From: Mycolicibacterium sp. TY81
GTDB taxonomy: Bacteria; Actinomycetota; Actinomycetes; Mycobacteriales; Mycobacteriaceae
Reading direction: 5' to 3'
DNA length: 64,000 bases
NCBI RefSeq assembly: GCF_018326285.1
Contig: NZ_AP023362.1
Location: 124,001 to 188,000, forward strand
Shown here: positions 14,217-56,553 of the stretch, in pieces
Numbering within the stretch: the first letter of the stretch is position 1
Layout of the letters: each line of letters starts with the position of its first letter
Made by a program: the position numbers and the translations under genes
Notes under the pieces: model-generated
Seen by the model: the letters and a program-made list of their open reading frames with translations, nothing else
What the model was told of the DNA's origin: nothing
Database searches by the model: none

Positions 14217-14266
14217 TGCGTCCTTCTGTAATCCGCCTGCTCCCGCGTCCCCGCGTGAACTTCCGT

Positions 14267-14281
14267 GAACGAAATGAACAT
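14267..14281. repeat. left island-edge repeat (candidate attL)
   Basis: GAACGAAATGAACAT here matches GAACAAAATGAACAT at 28479-28493 in 14 of 15 positions. The first copy lies 51 bp upstream of the kinase gene and 107 bp before the integrase; the second lies just before dctA. The positions fit att sites of the integrase. They could also be operators of the two-component system that survived on both sides. Confidence 0.5.
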
Positions 14282-14388
14282 TTTAGTTAAGTAGCCGCCA
14301 TCATGCTTCATGGCCTACTACCTGCGGCTTCACCGTACCGCAGCCTGGTAAAAACGGGGTACGCCGCTGCGGGTTTAACATAACTGGC

Positions 14389-15312
14389 ATGGCCACCGCA
14401 GCAACCCACCACCGCACCGCTACCGTCCCTGACCTGCACGAACTGCAATCGTCTTGGATTCTCTCGATGCGCGCTCAGCGCAAATCTCCCGCGACCATTG
14501 AGCAGTACGAGATCGGCCTCCGGCTGTTCCTGCGCTGGTGCGACGAGCACGGTCACCAGGCTGTCATCGACCGCCAGCTCACGCAGCTGTTTATCGCAGA
14601 TCTGCTGGAGACCGTGCAGCCCGCGACGGCAGCTCTCCGACTTCAAGCGATGAAGCAGTTCGGCCACTGGCTTGTCGAGGAAGGCGAGATCGAGGAGAAC
14701 CCCCTCATCGGTGTGAAGGCCCCGAAGCTCGACACCAAGATCGTCGAGTGCCTCACCGAGGACGAGCTGCGGGACCTCTTCGCCGCCTGCAAGGGCAAGG
14801 AATTCCGCGACCGCCGGGACGAGGCCATCGTCCGGCTGCTGGCGGAGACGGGGATGCGGGCTGGCGAGATTCTGCGGCTGACGGTGGACGACGTGGACCT
14901 GACGCGGGGCATCTTGGCCATCAGGAAGGCGAAGACTGGCCAGGGCCGTCTGGTGCCATTTGGTCCGCAGACGGGCCAAGCGGTGGACCGCTACATCAGG
15001 GCACGGCGTACGCATCGGCTAGCGGCCACCCCGGCGCTTCTGCTCGGTGACAACACCCGAGGCACGATCGCCTACCACGGGATGAGAAACGCGATCATGA
15101 TGCGGGCAGAGCAGGCCGGTATCAAGAACTTTCACCTTCACAAGTTGCGGCATACGGCGGCCTCGCGGTGGCTCGCCGCAGGAGGTTCGGAGGGCGGCCT
15201 CATGGCAGTCGCAGGTTGGTCGAACCGCAACATGATCGACCGGTACACGCGCGCGACCGCAGGTGAAAGAGCCGCAGCGGAGGCGCGCAAGCTCAACTTG
15301 GGGGACCTCTAA
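14389..15312 (+). CDS. tyrosine recombinase / phage integrase
   Basis: A SAM-like core-binding domain (about 15-110) is followed by the catalytic domain. Catalytic residues are seen in order: Arg in ETGMRAGEILRL, Lys in the beta-hairpin AIRKAKTGQGRLVPF, HKLRH (H-x-x-R) in HLHKLRHTAASRW, the position-VI Trp in AGWSN, and Tyr in MIDRYTRA. Length 307 fits a simple tyrosine recombinase. It lies at the left edge of the island, reading inward, and should catalyse its integration and excision. No excisionase was identified; one of the unassigned small genes may fill the role. The hexamers CTGCGG/CCGCAG upstream (14322-14343) form a small inverted repeat near its promoter. Confidence 0.92.
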   Translation: MATAATHHRTATVPDLHELQSSWILSMRAQRKSPATIEQYEIGLRLFLRWCDEHGHQAVIDRQLTQLFIADLLETVQPATAALRLQAMKQFGHWLVEEGEIEENPLIGVKAPKLDTKIVECLTEDELRDLFAACKGKEFRDRRDEAIVRLLAETGMRAGEILRLTVDDVDLTRGILAIRKAKTGQGRLVPFGPQTGQAVDRYIRARRTHRLAATPALLLGDNTRGTIAYHGMRNAIMMRAEQAGIKNFHLHKLRHTAASRWLAAGGSEGGLMAVAGWSNRNMIDRYTRATAGERAAAEARKLNLGDL

Positions 15313-15315
15313 ACA

Positions 15316-15495
15316 TCAAGCGCCGCAACACTCTACGTTTGGCGATGGCGGTTGGGGCGCCGGAAGCGGCGTACACTTGTAAGCCGTAGTCGAGAACTCG
15401 CGCCTATAGACCAGGTTTTGGTCGGCGGCGAAGACAGACCCGGCCCAGTAGTGGGGAAGTTCCGGGAAGGTGCCGTACAGGAAGACGCGGTCCAT
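15316..15495 (-). CDS. small island protein, 59 aa
   Basis: A minus-strand frame from ATG 15495 gives a 59-residue protein beginning MDRVFLYGTFPELPHYWAG and ending in a Pro-rich tail with adjacent Cys. The first 30 codons end mostly in G or C, unlike the opposite frames, and AAAGG sits 9 bases before the ATG. It converges on the integrase with 3 bp between stops. No family recognised; probably a small phage-type protein. Confidence 0.45.
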   Translation of the reverse strand: MDRVFLYGTFPELPHYWAGSVFAADQNLVYRREFSTTAYKCTPLPAPQPPSPNVECCGA

Positions 15496-15545
15496 ATGAC
15501 CGTGCCTTTCAAACGGTTCTCACCTTCCTGTGAGAGGACCACGAA

Positions 15546-15842
15546 GTGCCGTACCCAAGTGCGGAAGAACGCCGCCTAGTCGCGCAAATCGCCAGTTTGA
15601 CCGGTTGGGCCAACACCGAGGATCGCACTGCTCGGATGGCCAAACCGAAGGCCAAGTCGCCAGCCGACATAAGTTGGCACGCAAGAAGGTTGGGCTTCGA
15701 TCCAGAGAGCCTGACCGACGAGCAGTGGAAGCGGGCGAACTCTGCCCGACGCGCCTACTTCGCAAAGCTGGCGCATAAGAGCGCGAAAGCGCGTCGGCTG
15801 CGGCGGCAGGCCCGGAACGGCGGCAGTGCCGGTGACATCTGA
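15546..15842 (+). CDS. small basic island protein
   Basis: A 98-residue basic protein, rich in Arg, Lys and Ala, with a helical C-terminus (AKLAHKSAKARRLRRQA) that could bind nucleic acid. GTG 15546 follows GAGAGGACC. The inverted repeat TCTCAC-cttcct-GTGAGA (about 15519-15536) ends just before the ribosome site and could be an operator for this operon. Its stop overlaps the next ATG by one base (TGATG), so translation is coupled. It heads the rightward gene chain of the island; function unknown. Confidence 0.65.
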   Translation: MPYPSAEERRLVAQIASLTGWANTEDRTARMAKPKAKSPADISWHARRLGFDPESLTDEQWKRANSARRAYFAKLAHKSAKARRLRRQARNGGSAGDI

Positions 15843-16636
15843 TGGCACGAGGCAGCTCCATGTTCCCGGCCGAGCTGTTCAACGACGAGCGATTCCGGCG
15901 ACTCGACGACGGCCCACAACGGCTTTTGATGTGGTTGTGGGTTCACCCCGATCTCAACGGGGCTGGTGTCATCGCCATCCAACCGCGCGAATGGGCCTCC
16001 GCGGCGGCCAATCTCACGGCCGACCTCATCGAGGACTACGCAAAGCAACTGCGCGTCGAAGGTTGGGTCGACTACGACGACGGCCAGCTGTGGATCAAGC
16101 CCTTCATGCTTCTCGATGGCGTGCTGAAAAGTCCGAGCGGCTATATCAGTGCGGCGCGCGCTGTGAAGACCATTAGATCCCGCAGGCTACGCAACGCGGT
16201 CTGGCAGCTGTTCGAAGCGTTCGGGAAGCCCACGGCGCCGATGCCTGAACAGAAGAAGGACGAAAGCGAAGGGGACTACGCCAAGAGGGTTAAACGGGCG
16301 GCTGGTCTCAACGCTTCTGTAGAGACCGCGTGGGCCGAGACCCAGCGCAGCATCTCGAATCCCGGCGTGCTTGAGTCGCTTTCGGGCGCGGTGGGGATGC
16401 ACCTACCGATGGGGCATCGGATGGAGCTACAGATGCGTCCACCGATGGGGCGCGTTGATGTTGAAGCTGATGATGACGTTGGTGTCGATCAACAGGAACC
16501 ACGGCAAAACGGTGAATCCAAGGCCGATGTAGCCGCTAACGGCTTCGGCTTGTGTTCGCAGGGTTGCGACAGTCCGGCTGGGCACGGCTCGCGCAATCAC
16601 CTGTGCGAGGAATGCGCTCGGACGGTGACGTGGTGA
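15842..16636 (+). CDS. replication-type phage protein with C-terminal zinc motif
   Basis: The N-terminal half (PAELFNDERFRRLDDGPQRLL, then AAANLTADLIEDYAKQLRVE) reads like the winged-helix N-terminus of phage replication initiators or helicase-loader proteins, in which a short alpha/beta domain precedes an HTH. A low-complexity linker with repeated P-M-G segments follows. The last 30 residues contain CSQGC, then H-x3-H-x-C-x2-C, a plausible zinc site. This is probably the DNA-replication or copy-control protein of the island, but a purely regulatory role is possible. Both ends overlap neighbours (TGATG upstream, GTGA downstream). Confidence 0.6.
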   Translation: MARGSSMFPAELFNDERFRRLDDGPQRLLMWLWVHPDLNGAGVIAIQPREWASAAANLTADLIEDYAKQLRVEGWVDYDDGQLWIKPFMLLDGVLKSPSGYISAARAVKTIRSRRLRNAVWQLFEAFGKPTAPMPEQKKDESEGDYAKRVKRAAGLNASVETAWAETQRSISNPGVLESLSGAVGMHLPMGHRMELQMRPPMGRVDVEADDDVGVDQQEPRQNGESKADVAANGFGLCSQGCDSPAGHGSRNHLCEECARTVTW

Positions 16637-16770
16637 CCGCACGGTGCGCCGACTGTGGCAAGAGGCCATCGCAGGGTGGCCTAGTCGCCTGGCGACCCGA
16701 CCTATGCCGTCCGTGCAGTGAGGCGCTGAAGCATCCGAGTCAGCGCGGCACTACTTGGAAGCGCTCGTGA
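16633..16770 (+). CDS. zinc-ribbon micro-protein, 45 aa
   Basis: GTG 16633 overlaps the previous stop as GTGA. The short product has two CxxC knuckles (RCADCGKR and LCRPCSEA) separated by 18 residues, the geometry of a minimal zinc ribbon. Such proteins in small phages are often DNA-binding accessory factors. It is followed at once, again by a GTGA overlap, by a second cysteine-rich peptide. Too short for most gene finders. Confidence 0.6.
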   Translation: MTARCADCGKRPSQGGLVAWRPDLCRPCSEALKHPSQRGTTWKRS

Positions 16771-16958
16771 GCCGCATCGACAAGCAGTGTCCGATCTGCG
16801 GCGATCCTTGCCAGGCCGGTCAAGAGCGCTACGGCGGCCATTTGAGCTGTCTTGGCCCTTGCCGGAAGTGCCATCGCTATCCGGCGATCAGGCCGGGTGG
16901 TCCGTGTCGAGATTGTGTTCGGAAGTACGGCGACAGCGTGGCGGCCGATGAAGTCTGA
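16767..16958 (+). CDS. cysteine-rich zinc-binding small protein
   Basis: A 63-residue protein from GTG 16767 (GTGA overlap with the preceding stop; ATG 16755 is an alternative). It has CPICGDPC, then a single C, CRKC, and CRDC, enough for two structural zinc sites. It overlaps the next gene by 11 bp. The tandem of two zinc peptides suggests duplicated or co-folded accessory factors, but no function is known. Confidence 0.6.
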   Translation: MSRIDKQCPICGDPCQAGQERYGGHLSCLGPCRKCHRYPAIRPGGPCRDCVRKYGDSVAADEV

Positions 16959-17601
16959 TCGCGACCGTGCCGCCGAATCGTGGTTGGACGGCTACCTCAG
17001 ACAGCATCACGGGTGGGTCCTGGAGAACCGAGCTTTGCTCGCTCGGGCAGAGGCGGGGATCGGGGACCTGGCGTTCGATCGCGCCGTTCGGGCAATCGCG
17101 GTGAGGACCGCTGCTCCCGGCCTGGAGAAGTATTGGGCTCTGTCGTTGCCGGGTGTTCTCCCAGAACGCGAGCCGGAACCTGAACCCGAACCCGAGCCGG
17201 AGCCCCCGCCCGATCCTGAACCCGAGCCCGAAGACCAGGGCAGCATCGAGGTACCTGCGGACACCTGGAGCGGTGCGATTCTCATCTGCCATCGAGTGGG
17301 ACCGCCAAATCGGTGGTTCGTCTGGGCGAGCATGGCGGAGGCCGTTGAGGCGTCGGAAGAACTATCGCCGTGCGACGGCCGCTGCGAGGGCGAGCACACC
17401 GTCATCTGGGTCAGTTACGGCAACTTCCGGTGCCGTCGCGTGAAGGCCACGGCGGCACCGCCCCGGCCAAACCCGCCGCCCCCGTCCCACAAAAGTCCGG
17501 CTGTGCGGGTCGCTGGGGCTCGTTCTGCGGTGGCCGGGGGTAAGCGCACCGGCCAGCCCAAAGTGTCCCGGCAGCGTTGCGCTGGTGGGGATTTGAGTTG
17601 A
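16948..17601 (+). CDS. island protein with Glu-Pro repeat linker
   Basis: ATG 16948 gives 217 residues. A helical N-terminal domain (AESWLDGYLRQHHGWVLEN) is followed by a run of alternating Glu and Pro (about residues 72-95) that must be an extended spacer. A compact domain follows (SGAILICHRVGPPNRWFVWASMAE) with two late Cys pairs, and then a basic Pro-rich tail. Extended E-P runs also separate domains in phage and cell-envelope proteins. No family recognised. The ORF could be read from 16852 but would then overlap the zinc protein almost fully. Confidence 0.55.
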   Translation: MKSDRDRAAESWLDGYLRQHHGWVLENRALLARAEAGIGDLAFDRAVRAIAVRTAAPGLEKYWALSLPGVLPEREPEPEPEPEPEPPPDPEPEPEDQGSIEVPADTWSGAILICHRVGPPNRWFVWASMAEAVEASEELSPCDGRCEGEHTVIWVSYGNFRCRRVKATAAPPRPNPPPPSHKSPAVRVAGARSAVAGGKRTGQPKVSRQRCAGGDLS

Positions 17602-17640
17602 CACCAGATTGGTGTCGCTTTGAGAAGGAGAGAGATAGAG

Positions 17641-17976
17641 ATGAAGAAGGACGCAAGCCCGAGCGATCGTTACCGACCTCAGCAGGTCCGAATCCTCAGG
17701 CAAATTCGTGGCGCGGGGACGTTGGTCGACTCCCTGGTGAGCTCGGTGCAGGAGCTCCTCCGGGCGGCGGAGGGTATGGAATGTGGTCGTGTCTTGCTCC
17801 ACCCAAACGGCGAGCCGTTCACCGCGCAGGAGTGCCTGAACCTGCTGTTGGAGGGCAACGGTTTTTGTCGGCCGGGTGTGCAGGAGGCACTGATTCGCGA
17901 GCTGGATACGAGCGCCGTGTTGAGACGCCACCGGCAAGAAGGGAATTCGGGTTCCAGCCGAGTGGTGTCACGATGA
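17641..17976 (+). CDS. small island protein, 111 aa
   Basis: ATG 17641 follows an A/G-rich ribosome site (AAGGAGAGAG). The product is helical with a central segment HPNGEPFTAQECLNLLLEGNG and two Cys. Its stop overlaps the next start as ATGA. No family recognised; position suggests a phage accessory gene in the same polycistron. Confidence 0.6.
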   Translation: MKKDASPSDRYRPQQVRILRQIRGAGTLVDSLVSSVQELLRAAEGMECGRVLLHPNGEPFTAQECLNLLLEGNGFCRPGVQEALIRELDTSAVLRRHRQEGNSGSSRVVSR

Positions 17977-18248
17977 GGGAGGGTGGAGCGACGGGCGACT
18001 ACGTCCGCGTAGAGAAAGATCATGTCCATATCAGCGGCATGGACGCGCGTGCGAGAGCTGCGCGCTTGGTGACCGCCGTGGCCCAACAGTCCGGCCAGGG
18101 GTTAGACCTGGAAGCGGTGTTCGGGGAGGACGAGCTGACCAGTGGCATTGACTGCCTTCGGTGCTGGACGGTCCTGGCCATGACGCTGGCGAGGGAGTGC
18201 CGGTACTGGATGGATGCCGCGAAAGTGACGCCAGGAGGGGCGAACTGA
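17973..18248 (+). CDS. small island protein, 91 aa
   Basis: ATG 17973 overlaps the preceding stop by 4 bp, and its own TGA shares one base with the next ATG (TGATG). The product starts with a Gly-rich segment, then helices containing DCLRCW, a CxxC that may bind metal or pair. No family recognised. The longer ORF from 17577 in this frame runs through the previous gene and is not needed. Confidence 0.55.
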   Translation: MREGGATGDYVRVEKDHVHISGMDARARAARLVTAVAQQSGQGLDLEAVFGEDELTSGIDCLRCWTVLAMTLARECRYWMDAAKVTPGGAN

Positions 18249-18613
18249 TGTTCTTCGACAACGAGCCCCCCGGCCTGAGTGACGCCGACCGCGAGGCGGT
18301 CGCCAGTCCGTTGGCCGACTACGAGTTGCGCACCGTCGCCCGCTGGCAGGCCGAGGCGCTGCGGTCACGGGTGCCCAGCTTCACACTGGCCCGCCGTCTG
18401 GTCGCCGCCCTCATCAGCGGCGGCTGGCCGACCGCGCAAGCGGTGCTCGACGAAGCCGAGGCGCGGGGCCTGACCAAGGAGGTTCTGGAAGCCTGCGCGG
18501 CTGATGCGGCGGTGCTCACGCTCAGGTCGTCGGGTGGTGATGTGGACACTGCGTCGAACTACTTCGAGCAAATGTTGCGACACCAGCAATTGCTGGACGA
18601 GGGCGTCGAATAA
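18248..18613 (+). CDS. small helical island protein, 121 aa
   Basis: The product has an acidic start (MFFDNEPPGLSDADREAV) and an alpha-helical body with ALISGGWPTAQAVLDEAEARG and a His/Gln-rich tail. It is the last of eight rightward genes that overlap or nearly touch from 15546. A gap of 211 bp then precedes the capsid gene, so transcription may be re-set there. Function unknown. Confidence 0.55.
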   Translation: MFFDNEPPGLSDADREAVASPLADYELRTVARWQAEALRSRVPSFTLARRLVAALISGGWPTAQAVLDEAEARGLTKEVLEACAADAAVLTLRSSGGDVDTASNYFEQMLRHQQLLDEGVE

Positions 18614-18790
18614 CGACCGTCGATCGCTGGACCTGCGGTTTCAGGAAAAGACCGTTATTGGAATTCGAGAGGGCACTTTTGCTCGAAATATGATGCTAGA
18701 CAACGGATCTCAAGCGTCCTACGCTTGACCCTGCACGCTCGGCGTACGGGGCGACGAATCGTCGTCAAACGAAACTGCCGGTTTGGGTCC

Positions 18791-18808
18791 TGGGTTTGCG
18801 CAAACCCA
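18791..18808. promoter_or_regulatory. 18-bp perfect palindrome before capsid gene
   Basis: TGGGTTTGCGCAAACCCA is a perfect palindrome ending 16 bp before the capsid ATG, just ahead of AGAAGGA. In DNA it suits a dimeric repressor; in RNA the 8-bp stem would sit next to the ribosome site and could slow capsid translation. The 18614-18790 stretch around it has no convincing gene. Confidence 0.55.
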
Positions 18809-18824
18809 ACTAGAAGGACGACCC

Positions 18825-20255
18825 ATGCAGACCATGGCGGACTTGCGCGCCGTTGTCGCGAGCGAATTGCAGAGCAGGCTAGAGGATTTCGCCACGCGGC
18901 GGGCTGACACCATGCCGTCGCAAGAAGAGTGGCGGCGAGTTCTTGAGCTCCGCAAGGAGCTGCGCGCGATCGACAAGTCGGCAGGCGTGGGGTCTCGAGC
19001 CCAGGAGTCTCCGATGACGATTGATGAACAGCGCCAATGGATTGCGCGCCTCGTAGCGCAGCGCGACCAGGCTACCGCCGAGGCCCGGCGGTTCTTGCAA
19101 GACGTGCAAGAGGATGGTCGCGACCACCTCAACGAGCGTGAGGCCGCACGGTTCGCCGTGATGCGCCGGAACATCTCCAAGCTCGATAAGCGCATCGAGG
19201 AAGGCCGCGCGACGTTGGGCCGACTGGGTGCGCGCAATGAAGGCCTCCAGGTGCTGCGCGAGCGCCAGGGGCTCGCGTGTGCTCAGCGCAAGCGCGGTGT
19301 TCCGGCCAGCACGTTCTCGCCGCTGAACTTCGACTTAGAGGAGCTGCGCGCCGTCCATGAGCGGGTAAAGCGTGGCGAGGCAGCGGGTTTCAAGACCAAG
19401 CGGGACTTTAACTCTGCTGAGGGCTTCCTGCCCGCAGAGCTGTACAACATCCCAACCTTTCCCCGGCACGAAAGACGGCTGCTGGAATTTTTGCCGGGGT
19501 TCGCGCTGGACGCTCCCTCGCTTGAGTACATCCAGGTCAACAGCGTGACCGGTGCTGCCGCTCCGGTGGATGAGGGTGCGCTCAAGCCCGAGCTCATCAT
19601 GAACACCTCGCACGTCATCGTGACCGCGCAGAAGCTCGCGGCGCACACCGGCATCTCGTACGAGTCGGCGCAGGACTGGACCGCCTTCACCACGGCGGTA
19701 ACGGTCGAACTGACCAAGCAAGTCGTGGATGCCGAGAACGAATTCCTGCTGTCGGGCATCGTTTCGGGTGGCACCACCCCGGTCGTTGAGACGCCGGGTC
19801 TGCTCAACACCACGGGCATCCTGACCCACCACATCACCAGCGAGACCGCACTGGACGCGGTGGAGATGAGCGTGGCTCAGCTGCGCACCGGCCCGTCGTT
19901 GTGTGAGCCGGACTTGCTGGTGCTGCATCCGACCACCTGGTCGGCCATTCGTCGGCAGAAGGATGGCTATCAGAGGTACATGGTCGCGCCCGACCCGACT
20001 CAGGACGAAGCACAGTCGCTCTGGGGAATTCGGGTGCTGCCCACCACGTCGATCGCGGCGGGCGTGGGCTGCCTCCTGGACACCCGGACCTTTGGCCGGG
20101 TGGCGGTGCGCGAGCCCATCGGTGTGCGGATCGGTTGGACCGGCACCGACTTCACCCAGAACATCTGGCGATACGTGGCAGAGGAGCGGCTGTGCTTGGC
20201 CGTGGAGCGGCCTAGCTGTGATGTCCGGGGACGTTGTCCCGTTATGTATCGGTGA
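18825..20255 (+). CDS. HK97-type major capsid protein with N-terminal scaffold region, 3' end replaced by IS481
   Basis: Residues 1-150 are charged and coiled-coil-rich, like the delta/scaffolding domain of HK97-fold capsids. Residues about 180-460 follow the fold, with the usual NSVTGAAAPVDEGALKPEL and LLNTTGILTHH segments and a late WRYVAEERLCLAVERPS. An IS481 begins at 20217, so the present ORF ends with 13 residues coded by the element. Removing the element and one CCTAGC copy restores a 475-residue protein ending SSILGLTGLPTS (stop 21364-21366). ATG 18825 has AGAAGGA upstream. No protease, portal or terminase gene accompanies it. Confidence 0.85.
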   Translation: MQTMADLRAVVASELQSRLEDFATRRADTMPSQEEWRRVLELRKELRAIDKSAGVGSRAQESPMTIDEQRQWIARLVAQRDQATAEARRFLQDVQEDGRDHLNEREAARFAVMRRNISKLDKRIEEGRATLGRLGARNEGLQVLRERQGLACAQRKRGVPASTFSPLNFDLEELRAVHERVKRGEAAGFKTKRDFNSAEGFLPAELYNIPTFPRHERRLLEFLPGFALDAPSLEYIQVNSVTGAAAPVDEGALKPELIMNTSHVIVTAQKLAAHTGISYESAQDWTAFTTAVTVELTKQVVDAENEFLLSGIVSGGTTPVVETPGLLNTTGILTHHITSETALDAVEMSVAQLRTGPSLCEPDLLVLHPTTWSAIRRQKDGYQRYMVAPDPTQDEAQSLWGIRVLPTTSIAAGVGCLLDTRTFGRVAVREPIGVRIGWTGTDFTQNIWRYVAEERLCLAVERPSCDVRGRCPVMYR

Positions 20256-21324
20256 GCCTGTGTGACAGGGAAGGCCTCCGGTTGTGAAGTGGAGCTGTCT
20301 AGGAACCGCTTCACCAACCAGGAGGCCTTCGTGTCCCACGCTAACGCTGCATTAACCCCGCGCGCACGATTGAAGCTCGCCGAGCTCATCATCGAGAAGG
20401 GCTGGACCTATACCGCTGCGGCCAAGATGTTCATGGTCGCGCCTCGAACCGCCAAGAAATGGGCCGATCGCTTTCGTACCGAAGGCTCTGCCGGCATGGT
20501 CGACCGTAGCTCGCGACCGCACCGGAGCCCCACCAAGACCAGCGACCAGGTCATGCGTCGGATCGTGGACCTGCGGTGGCGCAAGCGGCTCGGGCCCGTG
20601 CAGATCGCCGGACGACTGGGCATGCCGGCGTCCACGGTGCACGCTGTGCTGACCCGGTGCCGGATCAATCGGTTGTCCTACATCGACCGCGTAACTGGCG
20701 AACCGCTGCGCCGCTATGAGCACGATCATCCCGGTTCGCTGATCCACGTCGACGTCACCAAATTCGGCAACATCCCCGACGGCGGTGGGCACAAGTTCCT
20801 TAGCCGACAACAAGGCAAGCGCAACCGGCAGCTGACCGCGCATCGCACCGGTGAACGTGCCGACGATTATCGACCGCGAATTGGAATTGCGTTCCTGCAC
20901 ACAGTTATTGATGATCACTCTCGGGTTGCGTACGTCGAGATCCAGTCCGACGAGAAAGCGGCCACCGCGATCGGTGTGTTGCAGCGCGCGGTGGCCTGGT
21001 TCGCCGAACGCGGCGTCACGGTGGAACGAGTCCTCTCAGACAACGGGTCGGCTTACAAATCCTTGGCCTGGCGCGGTGCCTGCGCCGAACTGAACATCAG
21101 CCACAAGCGAACCCGGCCATACCGGCCCCAGACCAACGGCAAGATCGAGCGATTCCATCGCACGCTCGGGGACGGCTGGGCCTACGCCCGGTTCTACGAA
21201 TCCACCGAACAACGCAACACAGCCCTACCGAGCTGGCTGCATTTCTACAATCACCACCGAGCCCACTCCGCCATCGGAGGCCGCCCACCGGTCACTCGGC
21301 TGACCAACGTCCCTGGACATCACA
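20217..21324 (+). mobile_element. IS481-family insertion sequence
   Basis: The element is 1108 bp. Terminal inverted repeats TGTGATGTCCGGGGACGTTG (left) and TGTGATGTCCAGGGACGTTG (right, reversed) differ at one position. A direct 6-bp duplication CCTAGC lies at 20211-20216 and 21325-21330. It inserted into the capsid gene 12 codons before its stop. One intact transposase gene is inside. Confidence 0.9.
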
Positions 21325-21329
21325 CCTAG
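20331..21329 (+). CDS. IS481-family transposase
   Basis: A 332-residue DDE transposase. The N-terminal HTH region (GWTYTAAAKMFMVAPRTAKKW) is followed by a second HTH-like segment, then the catalytic core. The first Asp lies in IHVDVTKF, the second in VLSDNGSAYKS, and Glu in TNGKIERFHRTL. The C-terminal YNHHRAHSAIGGRPP is the standard IS481/IS3 ending. GTG 20331 follows CCAGGAGG. The frame is intact, in contrast to the multicopy IS256 genes nearby. The stop overlaps the duplicated target bases. Confidence 0.92.
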   Translation: MSHANAALTPRARLKLAELIIEKGWTYTAAAKMFMVAPRTAKKWADRFRTEGSAGMVDRSSRPHRSPTKTSDQVMRRIVDLRWRKRLGPVQIAGRLGMPASTVHAVLTRCRINRLSYIDRVTGEPLRRYEHDHPGSLIHVDVTKFGNIPDGGGHKFLSRQQGKRNRQLTAHRTGERADDYRPRIGIAFLHTVIDDHSRVAYVEIQSDEKAATAIGVLQRAVAWFAERGVTVERVLSDNGSAYKSLAWRGACAELNISHKRTRPYRPQTNGKIERFHRTLGDGWAYARFYESTEQRNTALPSWLHFYNHHRAHSAIGGRPPVTRLTNVPGHHT

Positions 21330-21372
21330 CTCCATCCTCGGGCTGACGGGCCTGCCGACCAGCTGATGACTT

Positions 21373-21452
21373 CCGCCGGGAACCCTTTACCCCGGCGGGA
21401 TGGGTGACGCGGCCAGTGGTTAAACGGGGCTCTACTGGCCGCGTCTCACCCC
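21373..21452. terminator. two successive hairpins after the capsid gene
   Basis: The first is CCGCCGGG / CCCGGCGG (21373-21398, 10-nt loop). The second is a long stem pairing GGGTGACGCGGCCAGT (21402-21417) with ACTGGCCGCGTCTCACCC (21434-21451), with a two-base bulge and a 16-nt loop. Neither has a clear U-run. They lie just past the original capsid stop and could end the island operon. The convergent minus-strand gene begins its 3' end at 21570; 21453-21569 shows no gene. Confidence 0.55.
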
Positions 21453-21569
21453 ATAGACGACGGCGGGCGCACCGCAGGTCGACCAATCAACTCACGACGC
21501 GGCTGAGCCGTAGGAAGAACACGAGGAGCTTGGCTGACCTTTATTGGACTGGTCAACGCGCCCGCCGTC

Positions 21570-21977
21570 TCACTCGTGGCGGCAGACGATCAGCCGCACA
21601 TCGGTCTCGGCAGGGGGCGTCCCCGTTGGGCTGATCGTCCACACCTGGGATAGCTCGGTATCCAGATCGACGCGGCGGGTCAGGTCGGCCTTGATGCTCT
21701 TGGCCACGAACTCCACGGTGGCTAGCGCCTCGGCCTGGTCGGGGGTGTCGTGGACGGCGTAGCGCGCGAACATGCAGGGCACGAGGTGTTCGTACGACAG
21801 GACGACCCACCAATGGTCGCGCATGGCGAGTCGCCACCGGTCTACCGCGCCAAGGCGCGGGGTCTTGTTCTCCTGCTGCTCCACGCGGTCCCACAACCAG
21901 CGCCAGCGCTCGGCGTTGCTCCAGCGCAGCCACACCTCCGGGTCGCAGCTCAGCGGCGCGGTGATTGCTTCGGCCAC
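21570..21977 (-). CDS. small island protein, 135 aa
   Basis: A Trp-rich product (WLRWSNAERWRWLWDRVEQQ, then DHWWVVLSYEHLVPCMFARY) of mixed helical and strand character. The longer overlapping minus ORF (to 22035) is in another frame and has shadow-type composition. It is the second of two leftward genes transcribed toward the capsid operon. No family recognised. Confidence 0.6.
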   Translation of the reverse strand: MAEAITAPLSCDPEVWLRWSNAERWRWLWDRVEQQENKTPRLGAVDRWRLAMRDHWWVVLSYEHLVPCMFARYAVHDTPDQAEALATVEFVAKSIKADLTRRVDLDTELSQVWTISPTGTPPAETDVRLIVCRHE

Positions 21978-22042
21978 TATCGACTCCTTTTGTGTCGGGG
22001 TAGCCGGGACGCTCGCTGCGTCCCGGCGTCACCACGGTTGGC

Positions 22043-22423
22043 TTACTCGGACGGCGTGGCCTTGACGACCACGGCCTGGAGCCCGGACTTGGCGTTGTAC
22101 TTCTCAGCGGCCTTCAGCGCTGCGGCCTCGGTGGAGTGGAAGCTCCAGATCGCGCCCGTCTTCAGGTGCTGTGCCTTGCCATCGGCGTCGGCCACGTCCA
22201 CGGCCCAGGAGCACGCGACCGTGCCCGTCTGACGGACGCACGTCCGACCGCCCCTGCCTGTCGCCGTGCTCTTGTATGTCTTCTTGGGCTCGGTGGCCTT
22301 CGGTGCCTCGGCCTTCGGTGCGGCCTTCGCCGGTGTCTTCCGAGCGGTGCTCTTAGCCGGTGCCTTCGCGGTGTCCAGCAAAGCGGTCGCGGACGTCGCA
22401 GCGGTGCTCTTGGTGGCGGTCAT
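22043..22423 (-). CDS. Lys/Ala/Pro-rich histone-tail-like small protein
   Basis: From ATG 22423, preceded by AAGGAGTACAAA, the first half is a low-complexity basic tail (APAKSTARKTPAKAAPKAEA) like histone H1 or the HupB tail. A compact C-terminal domain of about 65 residues follows, with two Cys and repeated strand/helix (SWAVDVADADGK, FHSTEAAALKAAEKYNAKSG). This suggests a DNA-coating or DNA-bridging protein carried by the island, but binding is inferred from charge only. Confidence 0.6.
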   Translation of the reverse strand: MTATKSTAATSATALLDTAKAPAKSTARKTPAKAAPKAEAPKATEPKKTYKSTATGRGGRTCVRQTGTVACSWAVDVADADGKAQHLKTGAIWSFHSTEAAALKAAEKYNAKSGLQAVVVKATPSE

Positions 22424-22861
22424 TTTGTACTCCTTGGGTCGGGAGCTGGCCCAATACCTGCTCTCAACTGCTAGTTTACCGTCGCGATGCGAACAGGTGT
22501 TCGAATGTGTTCCATCTGACACTGGAGCCATGAGCCAGCTGGGAGCGACCTTGGAGCAAACATGCTTGCGCGGCTCACAGGTTACTCACCGGTAAGACTG
22601 GGGAAGGAGGGACAAGCTCACAGGATCAAGTTAGGGGGCCTAACTACCTTCAAACACTGGCCCGGCCGCCTGCATTGCAGGATGTCCAGGCCGCTATACC
22701 CCCCGGCGCTTCTGAAAAAACGAGCAGAAAACCCGAAAAAGTAGGTATCCCCCCGAAAATCCAATAATCACTGTTTTTGACATCGCCGCAGTTCAGAAGG
22801 TCATCGGCGTGCCAAAACCGTTATTCGCCGTTATTGGATCGGTGCTCGGGAGAATTTACGG
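22424..22861. promoter_or_regulatory. AT-richer regulatory region with repeats, no confident gene
   Basis: About 440 bp between divergent genes. It holds a 9-bp inverted repeat ATCCAATAA (22759-22767) / TTATTGGAT (22831-22839) and two direct copies of CCGTTATT at 22818 and 22828, exactly 10 bp apart, i.e. one helical turn. Runs of A and C (22710-22760) lower its stability relative to the flanks. This is the best candidate in the island for a replication origin, promoter cluster or operator. Confidence 0.5.
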
Positions 22862-23227
22862 ATGGATGACGAGTTCTTCTACGACGACCGGCCTGAGATG
22901 GACACCCACATCCGTCGCACCGGCATCGACACCGAGGCCATCCGCAACAGCCGCGCCTACCGGACGGCCCGTGCCGAGTTCCGGCGTGAGGAGAAGGTGC
23001 GTCAGGCCCCGTGCATCATCTGTGGTGGGTTCATCGACTTCAGGCTGAGGTGGCCGCACGCCGACAGTTGGACGCTCGAACACCTCAAGCCCGTAGCGAC
23101 CCACCCCGAGCTGATGCTGGACCGGCGCAACTGGGCCAGTGGTCATGCTGGATGCAACCGGCTCAAGGGCGGCGGCCTCAACCCGATCCTGCCGGGGGAG
23201 ATGGGCGAGCCGAGCGAGGCCTGGTAG
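22862..23227 (+). CDS. HNH endonuclease
   Basis: A 121-residue nuclease of phage type. CIICGG gives the first zinc Cys pair, TLEHLKPVA has the catalytic His of the HNH beta-hairpin, and NWASGHAGCNRLKGGG provides the central Asn, the metal-binding His and a late Cys. In tailed phages small HNH proteins sit beside terminase and help packaging; here no terminase is present, so it may nick DNA for replication or be a homing remnant. ATG 22862 is the first codon after the regulatory region. Confidence 0.85.
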   Translation: MDDEFFYDDRPEMDTHIRRTGIDTEAIRNSRAYRTARAEFRREEKVRQAPCIICGGFIDFRLRWPHADSWTLEHLKPVATHPELMLDRRNWASGHAGCNRLKGGGLNPILPGEMGEPSEAW

Positions 23228-23339
23228 GGGCTCAGTCCCTCCCAGCACCGGCCTTAGTCCGGCCGCTGCCCTTGCATCGCCCAACCTCGTTTTTGTAGGC
23301 GCGGGTGTGCTCCTCGAAGCGCCACGCGCCGTGCTCGTC

Positions 23340-24802
23340 GGCTAAGTCCCCTGGGGTGGTGGGAATTCGGGGACGGGGCTGAGGTGGGCGGAGATGTTCA
23401 GGCCGTGTCGGTGCCGGTGTTGGGGTGGGCCATCGCGTAGTGGTCAGTGAGTTACGTACCAAAGTAACTCACCGAAGGAAACCGCGCGATGACCCTTGAC
23501 CATTCTGCCCTGCTCGCTCAGCTCGATGCACTGAAGTCCGCTGACTCGGGTGCGGTGTTCGCCGAGTTGATCCGTTCCGGGTTGCAGCAGCTCATCGAGG
23601 CCGAGGCCACCGCGGCGATCGGCGCGGGCCGTTACGAACGCAGCGACGGCCGCACGGTGCACCGCAACGGGCACCGCCCCAAGACCGTCTCCACGACCGC
23701 CGGGGACATCGAGGTGCAGATCCCCAAGCTACGGGCGGGATCGTTCTTCCCGTCGCTGCTGGAACCCCGCCGGCGTATCGACAAGGCGCTGCACGCGGTC
23801 ATCATGGAGGCCTACGTGCACGGGGTGTCCACCCGCAGCGTCGATGACCTGGTGACGGCGATGGGCGTGCAGACCGGGGTGTCCAAGTCGGAGGTGTCGC
23901 GGATCTGCGCCGCCTGGACCGCGAGATCACAGCGTTTCGGGAACGCTCGCTGACCCACACCAGCTTCCCCTACGTGTTCTGCGATGCCACCTTCTGCAAG
24001 GTCCGCGTGGGGGGGCGCACGTGGTCTCCCAGGCCCTGGTGGTCGCGACCGGCGTGTCGATCGACGGCACCCGTGAGGTGCTGGGCACCGCGGTCGGTGA
24101 CAGCGAGTCGTTCGAGTTCTGGCGCGAGTTCCTCGCCTCGCTTAAGGCGCGCGGCCTATCGGGGGGTGCACCTGGTCATCTCCGATGCGCACGCTGGGTT
24201 GAAAGTCGCTGTGGCACAGCAGTTCACGAACTCATCGTGGCAGCGGTGCCGGGTGCATTTCATGCGGAACCTGCATACCGCGGTATCGGCCAAACACGCC
24301 CCCGGCGGTTACCGCGGCGGTCAAGACCATCTTCGCTCACACCGAACCCGACGAGGTCGCCGCGCAGTGGGACCGGGTCGCCGACACCCTGGCCGCGTCG
24401 TTCCCGAAGGTGGCCGCGATGATGGGCGAGGCCAAGACCGACGTGTTGGCGTTCACTGCGTTCCCGAAGGCGCATTGGCAGAAGATCTGGTCGAATAATC
24501 CGATAGAGCGTCTGAATAAAGAGATCAAGCGTCGGGCCGATGTCGTGGAGATCTTCCCCAATCCGGCGGCGTTCCTTCGCCTGGCCACCGCGGTGGTCAT
24601 CGAATCCCACGACGAGTGGCAGGTCACCCGCCGCTACCTCTCCGATGTCTCCATGGACGAACTACGCGCCGTGATCGCCGCCAAACACGCCGCGGCAGCA
24701 CTTGCCAAACAACACCAAATCGCCTAGCGTTCACCATGACTCGTTGATCACAACGCGTGAACCACGCCAGATCCGAAGTCCACCACTCCCCGGGACGCTA
24801 TC
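23340..24802 (+). mobile_element. IS256-family element, copy 1
   Basis: The element is 1463 bp, with imperfect ends GGCTAAGTCCCCTGGGG (left) and GATAGCGTCCCGGGGAG (right, reversed). An 8-bp direct duplication TGCTCGTC lies at 23332-23339 and 24803-24810, the size typical of the family. It is nearly identical to copies at 26373 and 55052. It carries one transposase gene with several frameshifts. Confidence 0.92.
23489..24727 (+). pseudogene. IS256-family transposase, frameshifted (copy 1)
   Basis: The reading frame is recovered only with four corrections relative to the other copies and to a continuous frame: a G missing near 23911, two extra G near 24010, an extra G in the G6 run near 24161 and an extra C near 24300. 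The composite 411-residue mutator-type transposase has its DDE residues in VFCDATF, VISDAHAGL and NPIERLNKEI. All four changes are at G/C runs, so they may be base-calling errors in a repeat. Confidence 0.8.
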
Positions 24803-24964
24803 TGCTCGTCCTGGTACATGCGCCACTCGCACAGGCAGGCGGCGCAGTAGTCAGACGGCTCACCACCTAGCTCGCGGTTCGGCTTGAAGGGGTCGAGTGC
24901 CATAGCTCTTCACGGTAGGAAGCGTTTCGAAAACGCGAAGCAGATTGGGGCGGCCCGTTTGGGA

Positions 24965-25777
24965 CTAGCTGGCCTGCTGTGCACTCCCCGCTTCTGTCGC
25001 CAAGCGGTCCTCGGCGCGCTTGATGATGTCGTCAAGTAGCTTCTGGCACTTCTTAAGTCGTGCCAGTGCATTGGGGGTCAGGTTGGTGTTGGCCACTCGC
25101 CCGCTAAGGCTCGTCAGGTAAGCCTCTACGGAGCCCACATGCTTACCGAATGTGCGCTGGCCATGGTTAGCCCCGAAGGATGACTGCCACTTGCTGCCGT
25201 CGTTCCCGCCGTTGGTGTCATCCTCGGCTTTGGTGCGCTCTGCTTCGTTCAGACGCCGAGCCTCGCCCAATTGCTTCTGGGCCGAACTGAGGTCGGTTGT
25301 GCTCGACTCTCCGACCCGGGTGACGACCTTCTCGGTACCGGAGGGCGGCTGAACATCAAGGTTCACCGGCACGTACGAGGGATGCTGCGGGTACTGCTTC
25401 CCGTCGCGGCCGGTCACCCGGGTGGGTCCAGGTGTCTCATTTGAGACAGCTGCCAGAGCTCGGCTCGCGGTGTCCTTGCTGAGGCCGGTTGCGGCCGCGA
25501 TCGCACGCAGGGACATTCCGGCTGCCGCCATCGACTTCACCTGCTCGGCACGTTCCTCGCGGGGCAACTTCAAGTGGCACGAGCCGAATTCCTTGATGCA
25601 GTAGACATCCCAGCTCTCGTAACCAAGTGCCTTGTAGGCACGACCATTCCAAGCCTGCACAACGAGTTCCCAGGTCTGGTTGAGGCTTGTTCTGATACTG
25701 GCGGTTAGTGCTTGGGCATCGGCCCGGCTTAGTGAGGCCTCGCCGCTGGCCGTCTCTGGTTGTTGTTCTGTACTCAT
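24965..25777 (-). CDS. ParB-like HTH DNA-binding protein of the island
   Basis: A 270-residue protein. An N-terminal helical segment contains NGRAYKALGYESWDVYCIKEF, followed by a clear HTH (MAAAGMSLRAIAAATGLSKD). Both match the layout of actinophage and actinobacterial ParB-like or KorB-like proteins, in which a W-D-x-Y-C stretch precedes the HTH. The middle is a polar linker and the C-terminus a helical pair with Lys/Arg, likely for dimerisation. It may partition, repress or control immunity. ATG 25777 is preceded by AAAGGAAAG; ATG 25792 is less likely. Confidence 0.65.
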   Translation of the reverse strand: MSTEQQPETASGEASLSRADAQALTASIRTSLNQTWELVVQAWNGRAYKALGYESWDVYCIKEFGSCHLKLPREERAEQVKSMAAAGMSLRAIAAATGLSKDTASRALAAVSNETPGPTRVTGRDGKQYPQHPSYVPVNLDVQPPSGTEKVVTRVGESSTTDLSSAQKQLGEARRLNEAERTKAEDDTNGGNDGSKWQSSFGANHGQRTFGKHVGSVEAYLTSLSGRVANTNLTPNALARLKKCQKLLDDIIKRAEDRLATEAGSAQQAS

Positions 25778-26144
25778 CGACTTTCCTTTCATGGCGCATC
25801 ACAAAGCAACGCGAAAGCACTCGCCTTCGCGCACCACGCCATGAACCGGAACCGCAGCCGAAATGACTGCTCCGTGAGAAGGACCCGATTGGCCCGCCAT
25901 GTACATCGCCCTCGGTACTGCAGGGACGCCTGCCGCAAGTGTAGGCCGGTGCCGTCGGCGCGGCTAGGCAGTGCGCGAGATGCACCAGGAGGCAAGGCGA
26001 TCCATCTGGCTCTGGGTAAGCACCAAACCGGCGCGCTAGGCCATCCACAAACTGTCCCCAGGGCTGGGGACTGCTTGCGCACAACGCCGATGGCGTCGGG
26101 CCGAACACCTCAGATTTGGCAGGGCCGCCGATTACCCTCGGCGC
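25778..26144. other. gap without confident gene
   Basis: The stretch separates the leftward HTH gene from the rightward split membrane gene, so both promoters should lie here. A minus-strand ORF of 97 codons (25789-26082) has an unconvincing composition rich in Trp, Cys and Arg and is not called. CCCCAGGGCTGGGG near 26056 is a short hairpin. Confidence 0.4.
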
Positions 26145-26372
26145 GTGCGCAACTTCCTGGAGAGCATGGCAACCGACCTTCGTCATCGCTGGCCGCTCGT
26201 CGCCGTTCTTGCGGTCGGTGTCTTCATGATTTTCTGGGCTGGCTACGGCGTAGGAGCAGAATGGGGTGCGTCCCAATGGGGTCCGCTCTCCGGATGGTTC
26301 GCCGGGACGGCAACGGTGGGCGCTATCTCGGTCGCATTGCGCGAGTCTGCGCGCAGTCAGCGCGCCCGCGAG

Positions 26373-27834
26373 GGCTAAGTCCCCTGGGGTGGTGGGAATT
26401 CGGGGACGGGGCTGAGGTGGGCGGAGATGTTCAGGCCGTGTCGGTGCCGGTGTTGGGGTGGGCCATCGCGTAGTGGTCAGTGAGTTACGTACCAAAGTGA
26501 CTCACCGAAGGAAACCGCGCGATGACCCTTGACCATTCTGCCCTGCTCGCTCAGCTCGATGCACTGAAGTCCGCTGACTCGGGTGCGGTGTTCGCCGAGT
26601 TGATCCGTTCCGGGTTGCAGCAGCTCATCGAGGCCGAGGCCACCGCGGCGATCGGCGCGGGCCGTTACGAACGCAGCGACGGCCGCACGGTGCACCGCAA
26701 CGGGCACCGCCCCAAGACCGTCTCCACGACCGCCGGGGACATCGAGGTGCAGATCCCCAAGCTACGGGCGGGATCGTTCTTCCCGTCGCTGCTGGAACCC
26801 CGCCGGCGTATCGACAAGGCGCTGCACGCGGTCATCATGGAGGCCTACGTGCACGGGGTGTCCACCCGCAGCGTCGATGACCTGGTGACGGCGATGGGCG
26901 TGCAGACCGGGGTGTCCAAGTCGGAGGTGTCGCGGATCTGCGCCCGGCCTGGACCGCGAGATCACAGCGTTTCGGGAACGCTCGCTGACCCACACCAGCT
27001 TCCCCTACGTGTTCTGCGATGCCACCTTCTGCAAGGTCCGCGTGGGGGCGCACGTGGTCTCCCAGGCCCTGGTGGTCGCGACCGGCGTGTCGATCGACGG
27101 CACCCGTGAGGTGCTGGGCACCGCGGTCGGTGACAGCGAGTCGTTCGAGTTCTGGCGCGAGTTCCTCGCCTCGCTTAAGGCGCGCGGCCTATCGGGGGGT
27201 GCACCTGGTCATCTCCGATGCGCACGCTGGGTTGAAAGTCGCTGTGGCACAGCAGTTCACGAACTCATCGTGGCAGCGGTGCCGGGTGCATTTCATGCGG
27301 AACCTGCATACCGCGGTATCGGCCAAACACGCCCCGGCGGTTACCGCGGCGGTCAAGACCATCTTCGCTCACACCGAACCCGACGAGGTCGCCGCGCAGT
27401 GGGACCGGGTCGCCGACACCCTGGCCGCGTCGTTCCCGAAGGTGGCCGCGATGATGGGCGAGGCCAAGACCGACGTGTTGGCGTTCACTGCGTTCCCGAA
27501 GGCGCATTGGCAGAAGATCTGGTCGAATAATCCGATAGAGCGTCTGAATAAAGAGATCAAGCGTCGGGCCGATGTCGTGGAGATCTTCCCCAATCCGGCG
27601 GCGTTCCTTCGCCTGGCCACCGCGGTGGTCATCGAATCCCACGACGAGTGGCAGGTCACCCGCCGCTACCTCTCCGATGTCTCCATGGACGAACTACGCG
27701 CCGTGATCGCCGCCAAACACGCCGCGGCAGCACTTGCCAAACAACACCAAATCGCCTAGCGTTCACCATGACTCGTTGATCACAACGCGTGAACCACGCC
27801 AGATCCGAAGTCCACCACTCCCCGGGACGCTATC
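26373..27834 (+). mobile_element. IS256-family element, copy 2
   Basis: The element is 1462 bp with the same ends as copy 1. The 8-bp target duplication CCCGCGAG lies at 26365-26372 and 27835-27842. It is in the same orientation as copy 1, 1.6 kb away, so recombination between the two would delete the ParB-like gene. Confidence 0.93.
26522..27759 (+). pseudogene. IS256-family transposase, frameshifted (copy 2)
   Basis: It needs two corrections for a continuous 411-residue frame: an extra C near 26943 (GCGCCCGG against GCGCCGG in copy 3) and an extra G in the G6 run near 27195. Catalytic DDE residues lie in FCDATF, ISDAHAGL and NPIERLNKE. ATG 26522 follows GAAGGAAACCGCGCG. If the indels are real the gene is dead. 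Confidence 0.8.
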
Positions 27835-28478
27835 CCCGCGAGGTGGATTACGAATTGGGTCGCCGTCGTGAATGCCTGAAAGCGCTGGGCGAAGTCTGGG
27901 CAGCCCTGATGCAGGTGTCCATGGACTTTGTGGTGTTCCGTGAATATCTGGATGAGCTCCCGGCGTTTTTCAATGCGGAGATGCCACGCTCCGGACGAAG
28001 CCCTGCGGCTCCGCCCGGCGAGTCGCTTGGCGACGAAATCTATGGCCGTCTCCAGGCTTTCCTTACCCGGTGGACTCAGGTGGTCGAGCCGCCGCTCTTC
28101 ACCGCGCGAACCCTGCTTGAGGGAACGCCGATGCAAAAAGACATGGAAGCCATCAGCATCGACATGGCCCGAATCAACAACGAAGTCTTGCCCGAGATCA
28201 GAGATGTGGCCATCTCCAACACTGGTCGGCGCCCAGATACAACGGTGTTGTCGGAAACGTGGAAGACCATGTACGGGCGGAGAAGGGCGCAACTCGAACT
28301 AGCGACCGAGCATTTCAAGTTGGACCGCAGTGCCATCGAGTTGGCCGTTCGGGAGAAGCGCCGAGCCGAGTAGGCCCACCCGCTCCGCTGTTCCACCTCT
28401 GCGCGCCAGTTACACATATTGGCGCGGTTGCGGTGTTGGCCCACTTGGGATTTCACGGCTTTAGTACGCCGCATATGC

Positions 28479-28493
28479 GAACAAAATGAACAT
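28479..28493. repeat. right island-edge repeat (candidate attR)
   Basis: GAACAAAATGAACAT matches the left-edge repeat in 14 of 15 positions. It lies 77 bp before the dctA start. A third related sequence, GAACAAAATGTGAAT, sits over the dctA stop (29918-29932), so the motif may also be a regulator site. Confidence 0.5.
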
Positions 28494-28569
28494 ATGCGTG
28501 ACGTGCCTCACGTTCTGGACAAACATCCTTGCAGAAGTTTTCGACAACGAGGCCGGAGGACTGCCCGAC

Positions 28570-29919
28570 ATGACTGATCAAGCGCCCCGTCGCGACCGCA
28601 CCCATTGGCTGTACATCGCCGTGCTCGTCGCCGTCGTCGGCGGTGTGGCCGTCGGCCTGATCGCACCCGGGGTGGGCAAGGACATCGCGGTCCTCGGCAC
28701 CCTGTTCGTCAACCTGATCAAGATGATGATCACCCCGGTCATCTTCTGCACGATCGTGCTGGGCATCGGGTCGGTGCGCAAAGCCGCGACGGTCGGCAAG
28801 ATCGGCGGCCTCTCGCTCGGCTACTTCCTCGCCATGTCGACGGTGGCGCTGGCGATCGGCCTGGTCGTCGGCAACCTGCTGAGCCCGGGATCGGGCCTGC
28901 ACCTGTCGGCACAGGCGACCGGTCAGGGCGCGAAACTGGCCCAGAAGGCGCACGAGGCCGGCGGTCTCATGGACTTCGTCTCGCACATCATCCCGGAGAC
29001 CCTGCTGTCGGCACTGACCAGCGGAAACGTGTTGCAGGCCCTGTTCATCGCCCTGCTCGTCGGCTTCGCGGTCCAGGCCATGGGTACGGCCGGCGAACCC
29101 ATCCTGCGGGGCGTCCAGCACCTGCAGAAGCTGGTGTTCCGCGTGCTGATCATGATCCTGTGGCTGGCGCCGATCGGCGCGTTCGGTGCCATGGCCGGCG
29201 TCGTGGGCCAGACCGGGTGGCGCGCCGTCACCCAGCTGCTGACCCTGATGCTCGGGTTCTACGTGACCTGCGTCGTCTTCGTCTTCGGTGTGCTCGGGGT
29301 GCTGCTGTGGTCGGTGACCCGGATGTCGATCTTCCGGCTGGTCCGCTACCTGGCCCGCGAGTACCTGCTGATCTTCTCGACCTCGTCGTCGGAGTCGGCG
29401 CTGCCTCGGCTGATCGCCAAGATGGAGCACCTGGGCGTGGATCGCAGCACCGTCGGCGTCGTGGTGCCGACCGGCTACTCGTTCAATCTCGACGGGACCG
29501 CGATCTACCTGACCATGGCGGCGCTGTTCATCGCCGACGCCATGGGGCGGCCGATGGCGATCGGGGAGCAGTTGGCGCTGCTGGCCTTCATGATCGTCGC
29601 CTCCAAGGGTGCTGCCGGCGTCACGGGCGCGGGTCTGGCGACGCTGGCGGGCGGCCTGCAGAGCCACCGGCCGGACCTGCTGGACGGTGTCGGGCTGATC
29701 GTCGGCATCGACCGGTTCATGTCGGAGGCGCGGGCCGTCACCAACTTCTCGGGTAACGCCGTCGCCACGGTGCTGATCGGATCGTGGACCGGGACACTCG
29801 ACCGGGCAAAGGCCGCGGCCGTGTTGCACGGCGCCGATCCGTTCGACGAACTGACGATGCTCGACTCGAGTGTCGAGCACCCGTCCGGCAACGCGGGTGT
29901 GACCGCCCTCACATCATGA
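28570..29919 (+). CDS. dctA: C4-dicarboxylate (DAACS) symporter
   Basis: A 449-residue membrane protein of the dicarboxylate/amino acid:cation family, which imports succinate, fumarate or malate with cations. Family motifs are clear: the serine-rich hairpin FSTSSSESALP, the substrate-site VVPTGYSFNLDGTAIYLTM, and the later VGIDRFMSEARAVTNFSGNAVATV. ATG 28570 follows GGAGG (28554-28558); the upstream in-frame ATG 28486 lies in the island-edge region and is rejected. The likely regulator is the CitA/DcuS-like pair at 12-14 kb, now separated by the island. A strong hairpin follows the gene. Confidence 0.9.
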   Translation: MTDQAPRRDRTHWLYIAVLVAVVGGVAVGLIAPGVGKDIAVLGTLFVNLIKMMITPVIFCTIVLGIGSVRKAATVGKIGGLSLGYFLAMSTVALAIGLVVGNLLSPGSGLHLSAQATGQGAKLAQKAHEAGGLMDFVSHIIPETLLSALTSGNVLQALFIALLVGFAVQAMGTAGEPILRGVQHLQKLVFRVLIMILWLAPIGAFGAMAGVVGQTGWRAVTQLLTLMLGFYVTCVVFVFGVLGVLLWSVTRMSIFRLVRYLAREYLLIFSTSSSESALPRLIAKMEHLGVDRSTVGVVVPTGYSFNLDGTAIYLTMAALFIADAMGRPMAIGEQLALLAFMIVASKGAAGVTGAGLATLAGGLQSHRPDLLDGVGLIVGIDRFMSEARAVTNFSGNAVATVLIGSWTGTLDRAKAAAVLHGADPFDELTMLDSSVEHPSGNAGVTALTS

Positions 29920-56513: not shown

Positions 56514-56553
56514 CCATGGATTCAGGCTCAGAGTCCTGATCGCCCATCGGCGC

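Follow-up and report, generated by a model that had tools for sequence, protein, structure and literature searches.

A satellite-like island within a predicted two-component operator between a sensor-kinase gene and dctA in Mycolicibacterium

An island between kinase and dctA

We analysed a 64-kb stretch of Mycolicibacterium sp. TY81 (contig NZ_AP023362.1, positions 124,001 to 188,000; hereafter the window, from whose first base all coordinates are counted), in which a phage-like island separates a sensor-kinase gene from dctA, the gene of a C4-dicarboxylate transporter. The island, about 10.2 kb long or 14.2 kb with the three insertion sequences (IS) it carries, appears to lie inside a predicted operator of the accompanying response regulator, its integrase most likely using this conserved block as attachment site, an account to which we give a probability of roughly 0.7. 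Our best reading is that it belongs to an island lineage, satellite-like and capsid-bearing, for which the predicted two-component operator would serve as attB. An earlier note on this DNA had described a CitA/DcuS-type kinase reading leftward from 14216 and dctA reading rightward from 28570, with only phage-like or IS content between them; profile matches agree with both gene assignments, and integrase, replication, capsid and HNH genes together with three IS were found in the interval. The features on which the argument turns are as follows.

11965..12903, minus strand: response regulator of the DcuR/DpiA (CitB) kind; listed open reading frame (ORF), true start probably further in
12651..14216, minus strand: DcuS-type (CitA-type) sensor kinase containing an sCache domain (NCBIfam and Pfam matches)
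14266..14281, plus strand: attL, with the host's own operator-like repeat, TGAACGAAATGAAC, and the 10-bp core AAATGAACAT at 14272-14281
28478..28493, plus strand: attR, hybrid operator-like repeat, CGAACAAAATGAAC, first half island-derived, core AAATGAACAT at 28484-28493
28498..28511, plus strand: CRP-type palindrome GTGACGTGCCTCAC, retained at dctA
28570..29919, plus strand: dctA, C4-dicarboxylate transporter, ATG at 28570 (SDF, E = 6.5e-97)

A conserved block in island-free relatives

We surveyed 396 genomes of the genus for both genes, finding the kinase at E ≤ 1e-100 in 154 and dctA at E ≤ 1e-200 in 172; among the matches listed, 143 kinase and 140 dctA places were entered by hand, with 140 genomes holding both. 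All 139 same-contig pairs entered are divergent (137 of them island-free; the pair in G352 lies on different contigs), and the distance between the two matches is below 400 bp in 99 pairs, 0.4-1 kb in 18 and 1-2.5 kb in another 18, the longest gaps being 3.3 kb (G382), 6.7 kb (G267), 10.3 kb (G019) and 10.9 kb (G213). The seven nearest relatives (G238, G348, G396, G173, G165, G349 and G220) are island-free with one unsplit block each, at identities of 89-95% for the kinase, which is matched partly in G220, and 86-100% for DctA. These loci bear out the proposal of the earlier note that kinase and dctA were once divergent neighbours, and the uninterrupted locus it anticipated in related genomes is present as 137 island-free divergent pairs.

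The block lies before dctA and consists of the repeat TGAAC-N4-TGAACT followed, at most 25 bases on, by the CRP-type palindrome GTGAN6TCAC, matched with one mismatch allowed. It is present in all 40 island-free loci of a first sample, the repeat having at most one mismatch in 39 of them and three in L073, and also in 12 added loci picked from the larger survey (the seven nearest relatives and five with long gaps), so that all 52 island-free loci read contain it, with repeat and palindrome in fixed order and at near-fixed spacing. The palindrome fits the E. coli CRP consensus TGTGAN6TCACA, which M. tuberculosis CRP sites are said to resemble (PMC4117774). At up to one mismatch, the repeat occurs in none of 19 control dctA upstream regions without such a kinase adjacent (seven from genomes without a kinase match, 12 from paralogous dctA genes); because the repeat is missing, at this threshold, from all 19 of these promoters, we predict that it is probably the operator of the response regulator.

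The block itself varies in one respect: by a count made by eye, the first repeat reads TGAACG in 23 of 29 short-gap loci against 6 of 16 with gaps above roughly 0.5 kb. It is as if displacement of the kinase allowed the left half of this repeat to loosen or be exchanged. One genome, G085, has two kinase-dctA loci (L053 and L065), each with a block of its own, the kinase of the second being matched in two pieces.

Insertion junctions

The window contains exactly two copies of the sequence GAACNNAATGAAC, one at 14267-14279 and one at 28479-28491 (shuffle mean 0.02), and since these copies coincide with both ends given in the earlier note, those ends are exact. The nearest empty sites read GTGAACGAAATGAACATATGCGTGACGTGCCTCACG, except for a change of the first T to C in L142. 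At the left end, the window agrees with the empty sites through AAATGAACAT, with 26 of the 27 bases up to that point equal to G238 (by eye); at the right end, all 85 compared bases equal the G238 empty site from the core onward. The island sides match the same site at 20 of 75 and 14 of 60 bases. When direct repeats of at least 16 bases were sought, none appeared at the two ends, because the shared core is just 10 bp.

Counted from one core to the other, the island is 14,212 bp long, and by subtraction of the three IS and their target duplications 10,158 bp, closely reproducing the earlier figures of an element of about 10.2 kb raised to 14.2 kb by three IS. The further proposal that it entered a shared intergenic region holds as far as position between the genes goes, but must be narrowed, as the site is specific: it lies inside the conserved block, and the same point is used in two other genomes (see below). 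Similarly, new upstream DNA had been expected for both promoters and is found for the kinase only, since the stretch that begins with the core and runs up to the start codon of dctA is intact.

Each of these junctions has an operator-like repeat. At attR the first repeat is supplied by the island, as CGAAC in the window and as TGTAC in the related islands of G019 and G213; TGTAC is also native as first repeat in the island-free loci L050 and L144. Scored with a weight matrix built from the 52 native sites (range 13.5-30.6, median 28.2), the attL copies of the window, G019 and G213 reach 28.4, 30.6 and 30.6 and the attR copies 20.4, 25.3 and 25.6, against 10.3 for the next best place in the window, and the score of the island-supplied half-repeat is equalled by just 0.24%, 0.11% and 0.14% of 7-mers in the respective islands. 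This likeness may have been selected or may be a consequence of what the integrase needs to bind. The CRP-type site lies at attR in all three islands and within 80 bp of the attL core in none. The kinase start is 50 bp from the attL repeat, the dctA start codon lies 78 positions past the attR repeat, and the attL repeat begins 121-123 bp before the integrase gene (int) in all three islands. Around the hybrid attR repeat (28470-28500), eight bases, CATATGCG, flank it on both sides, the left copy being island-derived and matching the host's right flank.

Recurrence and integrase lineage

Related islands split the block at the same point in G019 (Mycobacterium kyogaense NCTC 11659; 10,245 bp) and in its close relative G213 (10,801 bp). 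Integrase relatives were found in 57 of the 396 genomes (E ≤ 1e-60); among the best 30 matches, whose loci were fetched, 17 integrases lie at the 3' end of a sigma-factor gene, four at a riboflavin-synthase-like and two at an Nramp-like gene, four elsewhere and three in the block. We take these gene names from short protein motifs and a reading of the upstream translation. The three block-site integrases form one clade (support 100/99, recovered in 100% of 200 bootstrap trees), in which the G213 branch is long, separate from those at gene 3' ends, which in the fetched loci are 56-66% identical to the integrase of the window. Loci L083-L109 provide, in the sigma-factor 3' end, an attachment site outside tRNA genes.

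Between G019 and G213, DctA is 97.4% and the kinase 93.7% identical, whereas the integrases share 67% and the capsid proteins 58% identity; with host genes near-identical and island genes diverged, the two islands very likely arrived separately. A scan of genome contigs for named relatives returned Mycobacterium kyogaense NCTC 11659 as the single true relative, besides a weak off-target match, and a scan of viral contigs returned one relative, whose upstream DNA resembles, by eye, the riboflavin-synthase site. Since two other species hold related islands at the point where the window does, the block is likely a dedicated landing site for this island lineage.

Predicted regulatory consequences

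The genes beside the island have the composition of a DcuSR-like two-component system adjoining dctA. The kinase matches the Pfam models sCache_3_2 and HATPase_c above their cut-offs, and its top NCBIfam model is NF008298 (DcuS/MalK family; E = 1.3e-85, 287.9 bits against a cut-off of 520); the product of 11965-12903 matches Response_reg above cut-off in Pfam, with the DcuR and DpiA models scoring best yet below cut-off. The locus combines a Cache-domain kinase and a DcuR/DpiA-type regulator with a neighbouring C4-dicarboxylate transporter gene; as both proteins are under the NCBIfam cut-offs, any assignment of subfamily and ligand is tentative. Kinase, regulator and dctA are all open reading frames in the window, and it is likely that the kinase controls dctA.

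We propose that recombination occurred within or close to the second of the two TGAAC repeats. Since the arm contributed by the island is similar to the first repeat, each end would be left with an operator-like pair after insertion: at the kinase (attL) the one native to the host, and at dctA (attR) a hybrid. The CRP-type site is found at dctA only. The predicted effect is asymmetric. Both the two-component system and the CRP-type input would still govern dctA, which would thus change little, although control may be weaker given the low score of the hybrid site in the window. At the kinase, an operator copy would be kept but the CRP-type site and the DNA formerly upstream would be lost, leaving kinase expression to be set by island sequence. 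A further target of the host regulator might be int: with the attL repeat 121-123 bp before this gene in all three islands, control of the integrase by the host sensor is possible.

A more speculative extension, which we regard as tentative and somewhat unlikely, is that evolution has given these satellites a host two-component operator for their attachment site and an operator half in attP. One two-way operator would thereby become two, leaving the transporter regulated, freeing the kinase from CRP-type input and wiring int to a dicarboxylate sensor, such that nutrient signals could time integration or excision.

Integrating elements often do little harm to the host because they land in tRNA genes or gene 3' ends and rebuild what they split; here it is an operator that would be rebuilt. 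If the regulator binds both copies, the element restores a regulatory site and not a gene, and the island-bearing strains offer a natural experiment in which a sensor kinase would have been cut from one input while another is kept. The block also provides a conserved candidate operator for a mycobacterial DcuSR-like system.

Alternative explanations

Several observations weigh against placing the island in an operator that serves as its attachment site. It is from conservation alone that the operator has been predicted, and among the 19 control regions five hold repeat matches at two mismatches and three a CRP-type palindrome. Within its own genome, 18 further places lie within one mismatch of the repeat TGAACNNAATGAAC, compared with one for a reversed control pattern; these are possibly further regulator sites or a result of coding bias. 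The islands are three only, two of them in close species. Compared without gaps, the left side matches G238 at only 41 of 75 bases, owing to small length differences beyond the repeat, and the attR repeat of the window scores below 50 of the 52 native sites, two being as low. Neither promoters nor terminators were returned by scans of the two junctions, and no sigma-70-like site was found in 14150-14450 (shuffle mean 0.2) by a scan that covers mycobacterial promoters poorly. Finally, the matching half-repeat could stem merely from what the integrase must bind. One alternative is that the block is just the DNA target of the integrase, the repeat being a promoter or leader element of the kinase and its copies at both ends carrying no regulatory meaning: the attP and attB arms must be alike for the integrase in any case, the block directly precedes the kinase start in most island-free loci, and a kinase promoter would equally produce conservation linked to the kinase. 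We nevertheless think this unlikely, because in G267 and G382 the block adjoins dctA although the kinase is kilobases away and the nearest predicted ORF to the left of the block reads toward dctA, and because the order and spacing of repeat and palindrome are maintained in all 52 loci.

The low score of the hybrid site also bears on whether insertion abolishes regulation of dctA, leaving the island-bearing strain unable to induce it. We see little chance of this, given that attR still has both halves of the repeat and the CRP-type palindrome, with the sequence intact as far as the start codon, and that the reading frames of kinase, regulator and dctA are open. We find it least credible that the region between the genes attracts insertions in general, the island being one of many unrelated ones there. 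The 36 of 139 pairs with 0.4-2.5 kb between matches, together with the 3.3-kb and 6.7-kb gaps, might suggest as much, but each of the 16 loci read with gaps of 0.4-6.7 kb has a single unsplit block, the additional sequence being located between it and the kinase, for which reason we also rejected these gaps as island remnants. No integrase or capsid gene was recognised in the three gaps opened for ORFs (L071, L144 and L145), the one gap gene tested being an alpha/beta hydrolase gene (L071, 207-1088, in the same direction as the kinase), and the block is split by three islands only, whose integrases form one clade. Extra DNA between kinase and block is seen in the gaps of L066-L074, L076, L110 and L144-L148.

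Relation to known elements

In a 2023 paper, phiRv1 and phiRv2 of mycobacteria are grouped with candidate phage-inducible chromosomal islands (PICIs; PMC10654092); phiRv2 is listed at tRNA-Val and phiRv1 without a tRNA (PMC10654092, PMC3986857), and the PICIs with tyrosine integrases drawn in PMC10654092 sit at tRNA genes. The integrase of phiRv1 is a serine integrase. Our island resembles phiRv1, phiRv2 and the candidate Mycobacterium PICIs in its size of about 10 kb, its integrase, HK97-type capsid and replication genes and its place in a mycobacterial chromosome, and differs from phiRv1, phiRv2 and the tyrosine-integrase PICIs in occupying an intergenic operator-like block. The earlier description of it as phiRv-like is therefore apt for size and integrase-plus-capsid make-up and does not extend to the attachment site, which is unlike those of both phiRv1 and phiRv2. 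Identity with phiRv2 was rejected, as was a tRNA or Rfam RNA as target: a single tRNA gene (5224-5316) was detected in the window, and the window has no Rfam match.

For the separation of a kinase from a regulator site, the nearest precedent that we found, by analogy, is HK022, a phage with a tyrosine-type integrase. This 40.8-kb element lies between torS and torT of E. coli, parts torS from an IscR site and drives torS from a phage promoter (PMC6814406). Both elements land beside a sensor-kinase gene and separate it from a regulator site (IscR for HK022, CRP-type for the island); transcription of the kinase from element DNA is demonstrated for HK022 and predicted for the island. In contrast, the part of PMC6814406 examined mentions no duplicated operator for HK022, whereas the island has an operator-like repeat at both ends and its other neighbour is the target transporter gene. 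Among the titles listed for prophages at regulator operators, mycobacterial prophages and satellites, mycobacterial dctA two-component systems, HK022 and mycobacterial CRP, none names the kinase-dctA block site, which is not proof of its being unpublished.

Gene content and insertion sequences of the island

The remaining features of the island, several of which have relatives in the islands of G019 and G213, are listed below.

14389..15312, plus strand: tyrosine integrase, 307 aa, open, its start 123 bp from where the attL repeat begins
15546..15842, plus strand: small protein, PHROG 2842, with relatives in the islands of both G019 and G213
15842..16636, plus strand: replication-initiation-like protein, PHROG 3171, 56% identical to its G019 island counterpart
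18783..20255, plus strand: HK97-type major capsid protein, final codons within the IS481-type IS starting at 20217
20217..21324, plus strand: IS481-type IS with terminal inverted repeats, CCTAGC at either side
22043..22531, minus strand: protein of unassigned function, 58% identity over 78 aa to a G019 island protein
22862..23227, plus strand: HNH protein, PHROG 338 (profile match)
23341..24802, plus strand: IS256-type IS, copy 1, own target duplication
24965..25792, minus strand: PHROG 29861 protein with a weak helix-turn-helix match, relatives in both other islands
26374..27834, plus strand: IS256-type IS, copy 2, own target duplication
27789..28373, plus strand: ORF starting within IS256-type IS copy 2, 43% identical, across 180 aa, to the later portion of a G213 island protein of 244 aa

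A sample of 20 island ORFs gave no PHROG match to portal, large terminase or tail genes, and we accordingly rejected a complete temperate phage; the helix-turn-helix part of 24965-25792 has one weak match to a terminase small subunit (E = 5.8e-4). Among the matches listed, the nearest phage proteins are 53% identical to the integrase and 28% identical to the capsid protein.

Each of the three IS has a short target duplication visible at both ends, and since the two IS256-type copies bear different duplications, they arrived separately. A third copy of this IS lies in the window at 55052-56514, and at least 24 further near-identical copies of at least 1.4 kb are present in the same genome, two of them on small contigs. 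Plasmids of Mycolicibacterium sp. TY66 carry copies at 99.5-99.7% identity, and we read the IS256-type copies as a recent burst.

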